A stretch of DNA of 25,590 nucleotides from a virus. The notes beneath the pieces were generated by a model that was not told where the DNA came from, made no database searches, and worked only from the letters and a program-made list of their open reading frames with translations. Below are positions 3,694-9,584 of this stretch, piece after piece; within the stretch, counting starts at the first letter, position 1, and each line of letters starts with the position of its first letter. A program made the position numbers and the translations under genes. Where the stretch lies: IMG/VR virus record IMGVR_UViG_3300035661_000306, positions 1 through 25,590 of that record; one strand, 5' to 3'.

Positions 3694-6453
3694 CTATAAA
3701 CTCCTGCGATTGAGTTCATCGGAGTAAGCCTTATTTGCTCCATATATCTTATCGTGACCAATTTCAAACTGAATGGTCTTAGCCCAATTGGTAACGGCTT
3801 CTGTATGTTCGCGTGCGGCATTAATAAAGTCGGCGGTGCTTGCGCTGACCGATGGTGTTGTGCGGCCACCCGGACGAGTTTGTCCGGATGATGATAAACC
3901 GAAAAGCGAAAATACATCTGAGATGATTGAACCGCCCCCGGAGACGACATCGCCGGCGAGTGACTTGAGTGTGTTTTTAATCATGAGGTCGGACTGCGCC
4001 TGCAACCACTGATTAATTATATTACGGATTGAGTTGATGGCGGATTGTTCGATACTCAACCACACACCGTCCCAGAAATCTTTTGCCTGCCTGGTGACGT
4101 TAAACAACTGATTGAACATTCCCTCGAAACCCGCCTCGATGGCCGTGATTCCGACCATCGTGGCTTCGTGATTTTGTTTCCAGAGTTCGACCTGCTGCGT
4201 GAGCACGGCATCGTCGTGAATTTGATTGATTCTATCTATGTCTTTGAAATATTGCTCGCGAGTAATGACGTCATCATTAAGAAGTTTTTGCAATTGCGCG
4301 CGGCGGTCTGCCCACTCGTTATCGAGCTGATTGACGCGGCGCTCTGATTCATTTTGCAATTGTGCTTCCGTGAGCTGCCTATCGAGTTGATTATAGTTTT
4401 CACGGCCACGCTCGGCGGTTTGCGAAAGTTCATCCCAATATTTTTTTTCTGCCTCGAGTGATGCAGCGTGTTCAGCTTCCTCGATGGCGAGTTCTTTTTT
4501 CGCATAGAGCTCGGCAAGCATTTCTTTATACTGACGACGTTTTTCATCGTCTTTTATGTTCTGGTCTGCCCACTCTTCTTGCTGAATTATTTCATTTTGC
4601 AGTTTTGAAATTTCTTTATCAGGACCATCGGGCATGAGCTCGGTTTGCAGTTGACGAAGTTCCTGCGCAAATTTTTGAATCTCTGTTTTTATTTTTTCAC
4701 GCTGTTCGGAAATGAACAACAGTATCTTGCTTTTGCCATCTGCTGTTTTTGCACTATTGCTGTTTGTTTCGCCGTTAATGATGTTGGTCGCGGTCTTATC
4801 GAGTTCATCAAGTTCCTTTGTCCAATTATCGTGACTGGCTTTGAGCGCCCGCTCAATAGATGCAATGCTATCGCCTCCCTGGGCCTCAACCTTTTCAGAT
4901 AAATTCAACTCATTTATTTTAGCAAGATTGGCGGTGAGCTTTTTTTGCAATGCCGATTTTTTTGAGCTATAATTTTTTGCACTCACATCAAGCATATCGT
5001 TCTGAGCCTTAAGGCGTTCGTTCTCGGCTTCGAGCTGTTCACGGGTTTCGCCTGCAGTGCCCTTTGGCGATTTTTTATCAAGCGCGTTGAGCCGATTTTG
5101 CGCATAGCTGAGTGCATCGGTCAGATACGCAATTTGATTTGTGAGGTTTTGAACCTCAAGTTTCCGCTTTTCGTTTTGTTCTTGAGTGAGGAAAACACGA
5201 GCGCCGCTCTTGCTCGTATTATAATAATATCCATTATCATTCTGTGAAATGCCTTGCAGTTGAGATTGCAGGGCTGAGAGCTGAGTGCGACTATAGTTGA
5301 TTGTCCAGTTCAACTGCTCGCGACTCTGTGCATCAATCTCCTGATGGTTGGAATTGATGGTCCCCTGACGTGTCGATTCAAAACGTTCCTTAACTTCTTT
5401 CGCGTGATTATATGCCTTTGCCAATTCACCGAGCCCATAGGTGAGGGCAGCGACGGCGGCTGTTACGCCAGTGAATGCCACAATGCCCGTTGCAGACGCG
5501 AGGGAAAGACCAAACAACTTCATAGATGACATCGCGGGTATGATGCCCGTCGTTCGCAATATTCCGTATGCTGCAGTCAATTGACCAATTGTGATCACGA
5601 CACCGCCGAGAGTTGGACTGAGATTTTTCGCGGCAACGGCCGCCTCGCTGATTGCATCGATGAACGGACTGACAAGACCTGCCTGCATGGTGGCCGCAGA
5701 TTTTTGCAAAGCGCCGACACTCTTTTCCATTTGATTGAGCTTGAATGCATCGGTCTTTTGAATTGCATCGTTGACGGCGCCATATTTTTGCGCCAACAAA
5801 TCGAGCACGAACGCACGACCTTGCTCGGCTGTGCCTGTCGCAATGATTGTTTTCATCTGCTCTTTTTGTTCGGCACTAAGCACGACGCCCATCTGCCTCA
5901 GCTTGCGCATTCCCTGCAGTGGGTCTTCGAGAATGATGCCGAGGTTACGGGCTCCCTCAGCGACGTCTGATTTCATAACCTGTGCCAACGCGAGAGACGC
6001 CCGCGTGGCTTTTGGTATTTCATCATGCCCGATATTTTTGAACGTGAGCAGCATCTGCTCCGCTTCAATGATTTGCGTTTTAGTGGCGAGAGTCAACTTA
6101 GAATACGTCACGGCAAGCTTTTCAATTTCCGACACCGTATATCCTGCAGCAGCGCCGTTGGATGTTATGACTCCGGACACCGTTGCAAGCGTGAGCTCGT
6201 ATGAATGGATTTTCTCGATGCCGGAAGCGAACATAGATTCAACCGCCTGGAATGACTGCTTTATGCCACCGATTGCAAGGCCGGCATTGGTGAATGATGC
6301 AGACATTTGTTTGCTGAATTCACCAACGAGAGTTTGACCGAATCGGAATGAATTGAAGAACTCGTTGGCAACCTTTTGCACACCAGAGAGAGAAACGTTC
6401 GCTTCTTTCCCATCGATGTTGACTTTAAGGTTTATATCTTGCGGGTTATTCAT
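3694..6453 (-). CDS. Tail tape measure protein
   Basis: At 919 aa this is the longest gene in the window. It has an N-terminal helical region, a hydrophobic alanine/glycine-rich segment around residues 280-345, and long charged, glutamine-rich coiled coils around 455-760, the classic build of a tape measure protein that fixes tail length and may enter the host envelope. From the approximate rule of 1.5 angstroms per residue the tail would be about 130-140 nm. It follows the tail assembly chaperone: its ATG overlaps the stop of the frameshifted chaperone extension (AATGA at 6450-6454). Several long antisense reading frames inside it are shadows. Confidence 0.9.
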   Translation of the reverse strand: MNNPQDINLKVNIDGKEANVSLSGVQKVANEFFNSFRFGQTLVGEFSKQMSASFTNAGLAIGGIKQSFQAVESMFASGIEKIHSYELTLATVSGVITSNGAAAGYTVSEIEKLAVTYSKLTLATKTQIIEAEQMLLTFKNIGHDEIPKATRASLALAQVMKSDVAEGARNLGIILEDPLQGMRKLRQMGVVLSAEQKEQMKTIIATGTAEQGRAFVLDLLAQKYGAVNDAIQKTDAFKLNQMEKSVGALQKSAATMQAGLVSPFIDAISEAAVAAKNLSPTLGGVVITIGQLTAAYGILRTTGIIPAMSSMKLFGLSLASATGIVAFTGVTAAVAALTYGLGELAKAYNHAKEVKERFESTRQGTINSNHQEIDAQSREQLNWTINYSRTQLSALQSQLQGISQNDNGYYYNTSKSGARVFLTQEQNEKRKLEVQNLTNQIAYLTDALSYAQNRLNALDKKSPKGTAGETREQLEAENERLKAQNDMLDVSAKNYSSKKSALQKKLTANLAKINELNLSEKVEAQGGDSIASIERALKASHDNWTKELDELDKTATNIINGETNSNSAKTADGKSKILLFISEQREKIKTEIQKFAQELRQLQTELMPDGPDKEISKLQNEIIQQEEWADQNIKDDEKRRQYKEMLAELYAKKELAIEEAEHAASLEAEKKYWDELSQTAERGRENYNQLDRQLTEAQLQNESERRVNQLDNEWADRRAQLQKLLNDDVITREQYFKDIDRINQIHDDAVLTQQVELWKQNHEATMVGITAIEAGFEGMFNQLFNVTRQAKDFWDGVWLSIEQSAINSIRNIINQWLQAQSDLMIKNTLKSLAGDVVSGGGSIISDVFSLFGLSSSGQTRPGGRTTPSVSASTADFINAAREHTEAVTNWAKTIQFEIGHDKIYGANKAYSDELNRRSL

Positions 6454-7006
6454 TTAATTCGCTTCCATTCAAACAGGGATTGTTGTTTGCTGTTGACTCG
6501 ATGAATCAGTTTGATTATGTAAAATCTAAAAAATTGTTCCGGGGTTAGCTTTCTCAAATAATGTGCATCCACAGGGTTGTTATCGGATGCATCGATGAGC
6601 AGGGTCTCATATAGATCAAACTTGATTGTCGTGGACTCCGGATCGACGTTGTATTTAGCGAGATCGTTTATTTCTCTAACGATTTTTTGATAAGCTCCGG
6701 TAAGTCGTTCGATTTCCGCGCGGTAGACTTCATAGACTCGACTCGCATTAAAAAAAAAGATTGTATGACATCCATGATTTGCTCTTCAGTAAAATCTCCA
6801 GAGGCCACCGGATCGACAGTATCTTGTGCCGGGATGAGGACGGCTTCGATAATTTTTTTCGCGGCTTCTGGATTGAACGAGAGGATGAATGAACCCTCTG
6901 GCGAGATTTGGCGAAGAAGATTTTCAATTTCGATGAGTTCATCGATGGTATTTTTTTTGAATTTATAATCACGGTTTTTTACCGTGAAAATTTTTTCGTG
7001 TTTCAT
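6450..7006 (-). CDS. Tail assembly chaperone, -1 frameshift fusion (G-T type)
   Basis: The zero-frame codons TTT TTA at 6754-6749, preceded by T, form the canonical slippery heptamer T-TTT-TTA. After a -1 slip, reading continues from AAT at 6749 through 99 open codons to a TGA at 6452-6450, giving a fusion of about 185 aa (86 + 99). The second frame has no ATG of its own over its roughly 110 open codons (only an internal GTG at 6572), yet looks like real protein (YEVYRAEIERL, YLRKLTPEQFFRFY). It fills an otherwise empty 214-base gap and overlaps the tape measure start. This is the arrangement of lambda G/GT, in which the T part binds the tape measure. No downstream pseudoknot was recognised by eye. 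Confidence 0.75.
6668..7006 (-). CDS. Tail assembly chaperone, short form
   Basis: The 112-aa protein (start ATG with AAAGGAGC upstream) sits directly before the tape measure gene, where phages of the lambda type place the chaperone that coats the tape measure during tail assembly. The N-terminal part reads like a small alpha/beta protein with a helix-rich second half (IDELIEIENLLRQI, residues 21-34). At residues 84-86 the codons TTT-TTT-TTA lie in a run of nine T, which allows a -1 ribosomal slip into the frame that continues to 6450. Without slipping, translation ends at 6668. Confidence 0.7.
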   Translation of the reverse strand: MKHEKIFTVKNRDYKFKKNTIDELIEIENLLRQISPEGSFILSFNPEAAKKIIEAVLIPAQDTVDPVASGDFTEEQIMDVIQSFFLMRVESMKSTARKSNDLPELIKKSLEK

Positions 7007-8413: not shown

Positions 8414-9334
8414 CTATGCATTAAAAGTGAGTGTTGACGAAGCAAGGCTGGCAGCGGCGGGGATGACTTTGCCTTTGAAGAGCATGTCCATTGATGAAGA
8501 GGATTTGCCCCTGTTCATCTGTACGTCGAGGCTGAGCGCGTTGGGCCTGAAGTCGAACGTCTCAAATGCAGAAGTGCTGATGCCAACTTTTTCAATAAAA
8601 TTCAAGCCGATGCCGAACGGCATTTGTTTGAGGTTGTTATAAAGAGAAATGGAAGCATCATTCAACGTGAAACGTGCTTCTATGTCGAGATAATTAACCG
8701 GAGCCTGCCCATAAAGGTTTGCATCACCGGATTCGGTTTTAATGGTGATGCTTCTTTTCGTAATGTTTGAGAAGTCGCTTGAGAACAACTGCGAGTACGC
8801 ATTTGTCGTCGGGTCAATGTAGGAGAGCGCAATCATGTTAGGCATAGACACGAGGTCTTTGTTGAAATATTGCCCACTGGTCGCCCAAGGCGCTGTTGAC
8901 GCATTGTACAGCGCATCGTTTATAATCAAGCTGTGGTCGGCCTCAGGAATTGAGTTCTCGAGAGTTAGTTTGAGCAAGCGTGTGCTCTCGGTGATGCTGA
9001 GCTCGAAGCCCAAACCGAAACCGTTTTTGTTCGAGAAATTCATAATCTTTCCATCGGGAAGCAAAATTTGCGCATCCACCGCACCGTCGGGAATCATGTA
9101 TAAAATCATGTTCGCGAGCTGAGCCAGGCGAGCCTGATAGGTTGACGGAGTGAGCGACGTCTTGATTTTGTTTGGAATTTCAATGTTGTGGTCTGTGGCC
9201 GGACGTTGGTCACCCAACCATTTGAGGTCTGCCTCGGATGTGAACCCAAGTGGGAACGCATATTGCTGAGTTGTGCCGAGCGTGTTCTTTTTGCAGATTA
9301 AAATTTTACCTGCACCTGCCGGTGTAAATGACAT
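8414..9334 (-). CDS. Putative major tail (tube) protein
   Basis: The start is the ATG at 9334, preceded by GGAG ten bases upstream; the in-frame arginine-rich sequence before it overlaps the previous gene and was left out. The 306-aa product has no TM segment, a compact N-terminus (MSFTPAGAGKI) and beta-rich repeats (VNYLDIEARFTLND, LSLDVQMNRG). Its size and its place upstream of the chaperone and tape measure genes fit a tail tube protein. Family-level recognition is lacking, so a tail sheath-like or other abundant tail protein cannot be ruled out, though no sheath-sized gene is present in the window. Confidence 0.5.
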   Translation of the reverse strand: MSFTPAGAGKILICKKNTLGTTQQYAFPLGFTSEADLKWLGDQRPATDHNIEIPNKIKTSLTPSTYQARLAQLANMILYMIPDGAVDAQILLPDGKIMNFSNKNGFGLGFELSITESTRLLKLTLENSIPEADHSLIINDALYNASTAPWATSGQYFNKDLVSMPNMIALSYIDPTTNAYSQLFSSDFSNITKRSITIKTESGDANLYGQAPVNYLDIEARFTLNDASISLYNNLKQMPFGIGLNFIEKVGISTSAFETFDFRPNALSLDVQMNRGKSSSSMDMLFKGKVIPAAASLASSTLTFNA

Positions 9335-9338
9335 ATAT

Positions 9339-9584
9339 TTAATTCTCCGTGTTCGTGTTCGTGTTAGAATCTTCAGCGGCCTTAGCCGTTTCAATTTGTT
9401 TTTGCACCGTTGTGGCGCCGAATGCTAATCCACCAAGCGCAATGCAAGCGGTGGAGGTATCAATCTTGTTAATCACTGTCATATAGATTAAACAGAAACA
9501 AACGCACAGCGTTATTAGAATTGCATTGAACCGGATGTTATTATATGGCCCGGTGTGCGAAATGAGGCTTAATAAGCTGTTCAT
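9339..9584 (-). CDS. Small two-TM membrane protein, holin candidate
   Basis: This 81-aa protein has a hydrophobic segment at about residues 20-39 (AILITLCVCFCLIYMTVI) and a second, weaker one at about 46-60 (ACIALGGLAFGATTV), followed by a polar tail (EDSNTNTNTEN) encoded by a short hexamer repeat. It overlaps the previous gene by four bases (ATGA) and ends four bases before the tail protein start. Size and topology fit phage holins, which release the endolysin, but the gene is some 7 kb from the endolysin within the same operon. Confidence 0.5.
   Translation of the reverse strand: MNSLLSLISHTGPYNNIRFNAILITLCVCFCLIYMTVINKIDTSTACIALGGLAFGATTVQKQIETAKAAEDSNTNTNTEN

Follow-up and report, generated by a model that had tools for sequence, protein, structure and literature searches.

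A conserved, phased T-heptamer points to −1 frameshifting in a probable tail assembly chaperone of uncultured Mu-like phages

Introduction

Is the stretch that separates a short open reading frame from the tape measure gene of a metagenomic phage contig truly empty, or does it encode the second half of a tail assembly chaperone, which ribosomes reach by a one-base backward slip within a run of T residues? To our knowledge, almost all long-tailed phages have a frameshifted tail chaperone. We addressed this question in record IMGVR_UViG_3300035661_000306, a metagenomic virus contig of which the whole 25,590-base stretch analysed is here called the window. Its genes include those for a transposase of the Mu type (Pfam DDE_2, E 1.3e-6; also phrog_310) and for a D12-class N6-adenine DNA methyltransferase at 326-1129 (Pfam MethyltransfD12, E 2.2e-23). 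TerL and portal lie on its plus strand, and most capsid, tail and lysis genes on its minus strand; the same divergent order of TerL/portal versus capsid/tail is present in related records L002, L003, L004 and L005.

Results

Slip site and second frame

The frame-0 codons of ORF1, which runs from an ATG at 7006 to a stop ending at 6668 (Table 1), read CAA TCT TTT TTT TTA ATG at 6763-6746, TCT to ATG being codons 83-87. The T-TTT-TTA heptamer originally predicted at 6755-6749 is thus borne out base by base and, because the run comprises nine T (6758-6750), a second heptamer, T_TTT_TTT (6758-6752), overlaps it in phase; both have the form X_XXY_YYZ. The −1 frame then stays open for 99 codons as far as the tape measure gene, where its TGA (6452-6450) overlaps the tape-measure ATG (6453-6451) as ATGA. 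The coordinates and lengths of the original prediction are therefore correct, as is its arithmetic for the predicted fusion (86 + 99 = 185 aa). Its remark that gene-finders would leave 6454-6667 empty is also reasonable: the −1 frame lacks an ATG, its earliest GTG and TTG lie 183 and 198 nt past the heptamer start, and the ORF list contains no ORF of at least 60 aa for this region.

Table 1. Features of the tail region in the window and +1 extensions in related records
Feature	Position	Strand	Basis or motif
Tape measure protein, 919 aa	3694..6453	minus	phrog_27166 tail length tape measure, E 9.1e-19
−1 frame extension (gpT-like), 99 codons (6749-6453) + TGA (6452-6450)	6450..6749	minus	translation; relatives' extension profile; codon score
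Slip site TTTTTTTTTA with phased heptamers T_TTT_TTT and T_TTT_TTA	6749..6758	minus	sequence; T_TTT_TTN phased in 11/12 same-layout records
ORF1, probable frame-0 tail assembly chaperone (gpG-like), 112 aa + stop	6668..7006	minus	open frame; relatives' profile; weak fold resemblance
Probable major tail (tube) protein	8414..9394	minus	position only, upstream of chaperone in usual order; no family match
Candidate +1 tail chaperone extension, frame-0 UUU_CGN	L040:1778-2468		TCC TTT CGA
Candidate +1 tail chaperone extension, frame-0 UUU_CGN	L041:5589-6231		
Candidate +1 tail chaperone extension, frame-0 UUU_CGN	L042:11180-11807		TCC TTT CGA
Candidate +1 tail chaperone extension, frame-0 UUU_CGN	L046:11923-12607		
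Candidate +1 tail chaperone extension, frame-0 UUU_CGN	L047:10277-10961		
Candidate +1 tail chaperone extension, frame-0 UUU_CGN	L048:9552-10254		
Candidate +1 tail chaperone extension, frame-0 UUU_CGN	L049:8271-8985		

A run of 99 open codons has a chance of about 0.002 at the local base composition, and openness by itself is modest evidence; it is conservation, described below, that lifts the −1 frame far above chance. Beyond the ORF1 stop, this frame also has the best codon score among the six. No stable 3' stem-loop was found in the window (best z +0.73), nor a conserved one across the records, and nothing resembling an SD-like element was obvious by eye upstream of the slip site; such stimulatory elements often accompany programmed −1 sites but do not do so universally. 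Suggestive 3' stems in L038, L007 and L008 (z about −3.5, −3.5 and −2.6) are not significant alone, since each is the top one among 12 windows.

Comparative sample

About 25 related records were collected by TerL profiles and their tail regions then fetched, and 12 of them, the window included, form a same-layout set in which an open −1 frame comes after an ORF and leads on to the tape measure gene. The overlap definition and the choice of kept records were settled during the search, so the statistics below are rough. Direct queries of viral_contigs with the fusion or the capsid returned no relatives, a first scan of genome_contigs gave no matches, and a close relative of the window is absent from the collections searched. 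The closest found is L029 (CAIWCR010000029.1), with 51% identity in TerL and 40% in the tape measure protein, on a contig binned as Parcubacteria; this bin may be wrong, as other relatives belong to Melioribacteraceae. Contigs binned with Ignavibacteriota are also among the relatives. The link of L051 to its TerL is unsure, the two being on different contigs of one bin.

Conservation of both proteins

Protein-level conservation is directly observed in both frames. A profile built from relatives' ORF1 sequences, with the window left out, placed the window's ORF1 first of 451 frames (E 2.4e-9). A second profile, made from the −1 extensions of L050, L038, L039, L007 and L002, again with the window left out, ranked the window's −1 frame at the top of 451 open frames (E 6.7e-9; runner-up 0.24), and leave-one-out extension profiles succeeded for all six close members, the window included, and for L043. 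They failed for L044, L045, L051 and L052, whose extensions have no detectable homology to that of the window; as the heptamer is present in these records, it and the layout have been kept despite replacement or divergence of the extension.

Neither ORF1 nor the extension has a Pfam or PHROG family. Using structure models of middling confidence (pLDDT 68 and 78), Foldseek against the PDB ranked the HK97 tail assembly chaperone 2ob9 first, a weak match (E 0.57), and VIA against 2ob9 gave Z 3.8 with an rmsd of 4.3 over 75 residues. The first-ranked match in BFVD was an Arthrobacter phage tail assembly chaperone (E 7e-3), and tail assembly chaperones recurred among the viral matches, while no fold matched the extension at E 0.001. 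Position immediately ahead of the tape measure gene, as in G/GT-type pairs, together with layout and weak fold resemblance, suggests that the pair is a tail assembly chaperone.

Conservation of the heptamer

A phased T_TTT_TTN is present within the overlap in 11 of the 12 same-layout records, and in these records the −1 frame is open for 78-104 codons. The relatives had been examined for second-frame stops and for a lost T run, and this outcome supports the originally predicted hidden −1 extension of a tail assembly chaperone. The T runs at the 11 sites measure 9, 6, 9, 9, 7, 6, 8, 9, 10, 9 and 8 bases and every one is in the required phase; the two T6 sites are the exact ribosomal heptamer. 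The remaining long ORFs of these records contain 22 T_TTT_TTN in 41,130 codons, a background at which about 0.3 would be expected by chance over all twelve overlaps. With the amino acid sequence fixed, the synonymous codons seen have a joint chance of 2.4e-9, uncorrected for relatedness of the records; the heptamer statistics assume independent records, which is not strictly true, but the relatives' ORF1 proteins share only 10-30% identity with that of the window. L045 (57% G+C) keeps its heptamer although no other in-phase XXXYYYZ occurs in 3,198 codons. Selection on the T-heptamer itself is evident across very diverged phages.

The exception is L008, which has GAT TTT CTC where the heptamer is expected; a single tRNA may slip there on U_UUU, or there may be no slippage. 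Its region 1476-2101 has a homologous-looking layout to L044, with a stem-loop a few bases downstream of GAT TTT CTC.

Alternative origins of the second frame

The fusion could instead arise if RNA polymerase slipped on the T9 run and added a U to some transcripts, which would then be translated in the ordinary way. Bacterial RNA polymerase slips efficiently on runs of nine A or T, and Thermus dnaX makes use of nine T (PMC5009743); moreover, T9 is found in the window, L038, L039, L002 and L052, and T10 in L051. However, runs of at least nine T are not kept throughout: at five of the 11 sites, in L050, L045, L043, L007 and L044, the same layout is present at only T6, T7 or T8. Constant phase is needed by ribosomal slippage and not by polymerase slippage, and a run that varies from six to ten T at constant phase, with T6 enough in two records, points to −1 slippage on the ribosome. 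We therefore regard polymerase slippage as an unlikely sole source of the fusion, though both processes may contribute in the window, where the run is T9.

Two other readings fare worse. Long homopolymers are error-prone in sequencing and assembly, and the source is a metagenomic virus contig, such that a miscounted T9 could have split one continuous gene. We rejected this, and consider it scarcely credible, because ten other records have the same −1 relation at T6-T10 in a single phase, and L050, with only T6, still requires a shift. That the second frame is a separate gene entered by re-initiation, or a decayed remnant, is very improbable: possible start codons do occur near the site in L045 and L008, but the window's −1 frame is without ATG and its first GTG or TTG is far inside, L050 has no start codon at all, and conservation of the extension begins at the slip site, with the frame open in every relative. 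Re-initiation was rejected on these grounds.

Relatives with a +1 extension

In seven other TerL relatives (L040, L041, L042, L046, L047, L048 and L049) the extension lies in the +1 frame. Each of the seven overlaps contains exactly one TTT_CGN, 5-9 codons before the stop, against a background of 10 per 29,004 codons, and leave-one-out profiles placed every +1 extension first in its own record (E 4.5e-9 or better). The −1 and +1 extensions are at best putative homologues, with an hhalign probability of 12%, although their last helices resemble each other by eye. In the TerL tree the shift modes do not form clean clades: L016/L041 (+1) and L019/L044 (−1) are sisters with 100/100 support. That sister TerL genes are paired with different modes implies either that tail modules have been exchanged or that the mode switches, and it suggests tail module exchange between +1 and −1 relatives. 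On balance, we lean towards a single TerL-linked Mu-like group that reaches the fusion in two ways, by −1 shifting at U_UUU_UUN (11 records) and by +1 shifting at UUU_CGN (7 records), with modules exchanged or modes switched among its members.

Discussion

Our results make it highly probable that the locus encodes a G/GT-type tail assembly chaperone pair produced by programmed −1 ribosomal frameshifting. The majority of ribosomes would read ORF1 to its stop and yield the short protein, while a minority would move one base back on the U run, by tandem slippage at U_UUU_UUA, U_UUU_UUU or both, and add 99 further codons to give a fusion of about 185 aa. If the phage follows lambda, the short form would coat the tape measure protein and the extension would recruit the tail tube subunit. 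The anatomy of the site, the conservation of the second-frame protein, and the conservation and phase of the heptamer can be read directly from the records; from them we infer that both proteins are made, that the slippage takes place on the ribosome and at an efficiency that leaves most ribosomes in frame 0, and that the products serve as chaperones.

These findings correct how a lineage of uncultured Mu-like phages is annotated, in which gene-finders would miss half of the tail chaperone, and they add a probable chaperone family that lies outside the recognition of Pfam and PHROGs. The relatives with UUU_CGN sites further offer a natural setting in which to compare −1 with +1 shifting of one gene.

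The slippery site of lambda is GGGAAAG, and no sequence similarity of the window's chaperone to lambda G/GT was found. The likeness is one of layout: lambda G/GT consists of two overlapping frames between a tail protein and the tape measure gene, with a −1 shift towards the close of the first frame and a fusion that ends just before the tape measure gene (PMC5009743). The original prediction had described the locus as a copy of lambda G/GT with a different slippery sequence, and while the layout holds, the novelty does not, as T-heptamers were already known at such sites (PMC3091744, PMC3931495, PMC4378225); only the final A differs from known tail-chaperone T-heptamers.

The E/E+E' pair of P2 shares with the window a T-heptamer, TTTTTTG, a −1 shift and the lack of a downstream hairpin, and T-heptamers also occur in three Burkholderia phages (PMC3091744); Smp131 and xanthomonad prophages have T7G/T7C slip sites (PMC3931495). 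P2-like phages, to which similarity was compared through family libraries, differ from the window in being contractile-tailed and integrase-based and in having G or C rather than A as the Z base. The D3112/PaMx73 siphophages are Mu-like and transposing, as the window is, and hold its best GenBank-phage TerL matches (JBD26 and others), but these are only about 26% identical over 43%, and the site predicted in the tail assembly gene of Pseudomonas Mu-like PaMx73, T_TTT_TTC, has C as its Z base (PMC4378225). Phage Mu, also a transposing phage, has a frameshift at the same gene position, in the gp41 region, but its shift is −2 (PMC5009743, PMC3498833).

Outside phages, U_UUU_UUA of HIV-1 gag-pol has the same seven bases as 6755-6749, although the systems are unrelated. 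HIV needs a 3' stem-loop, whereas none was found in the window. The U_UUU_UUA motif also shifts in E. coli (PMC5009743). More unusual than the window's T-heptamer is the +1 UUU_CGN set: we found no earlier report of such a tail-chaperone shift in phages in the literature searched, which is no proof of absence, and its motif is the P-site slip motif of the influenza PA-X +1 site, UUU_C with CGN following, as in UCC_UUU_CGU (PMC3498833).
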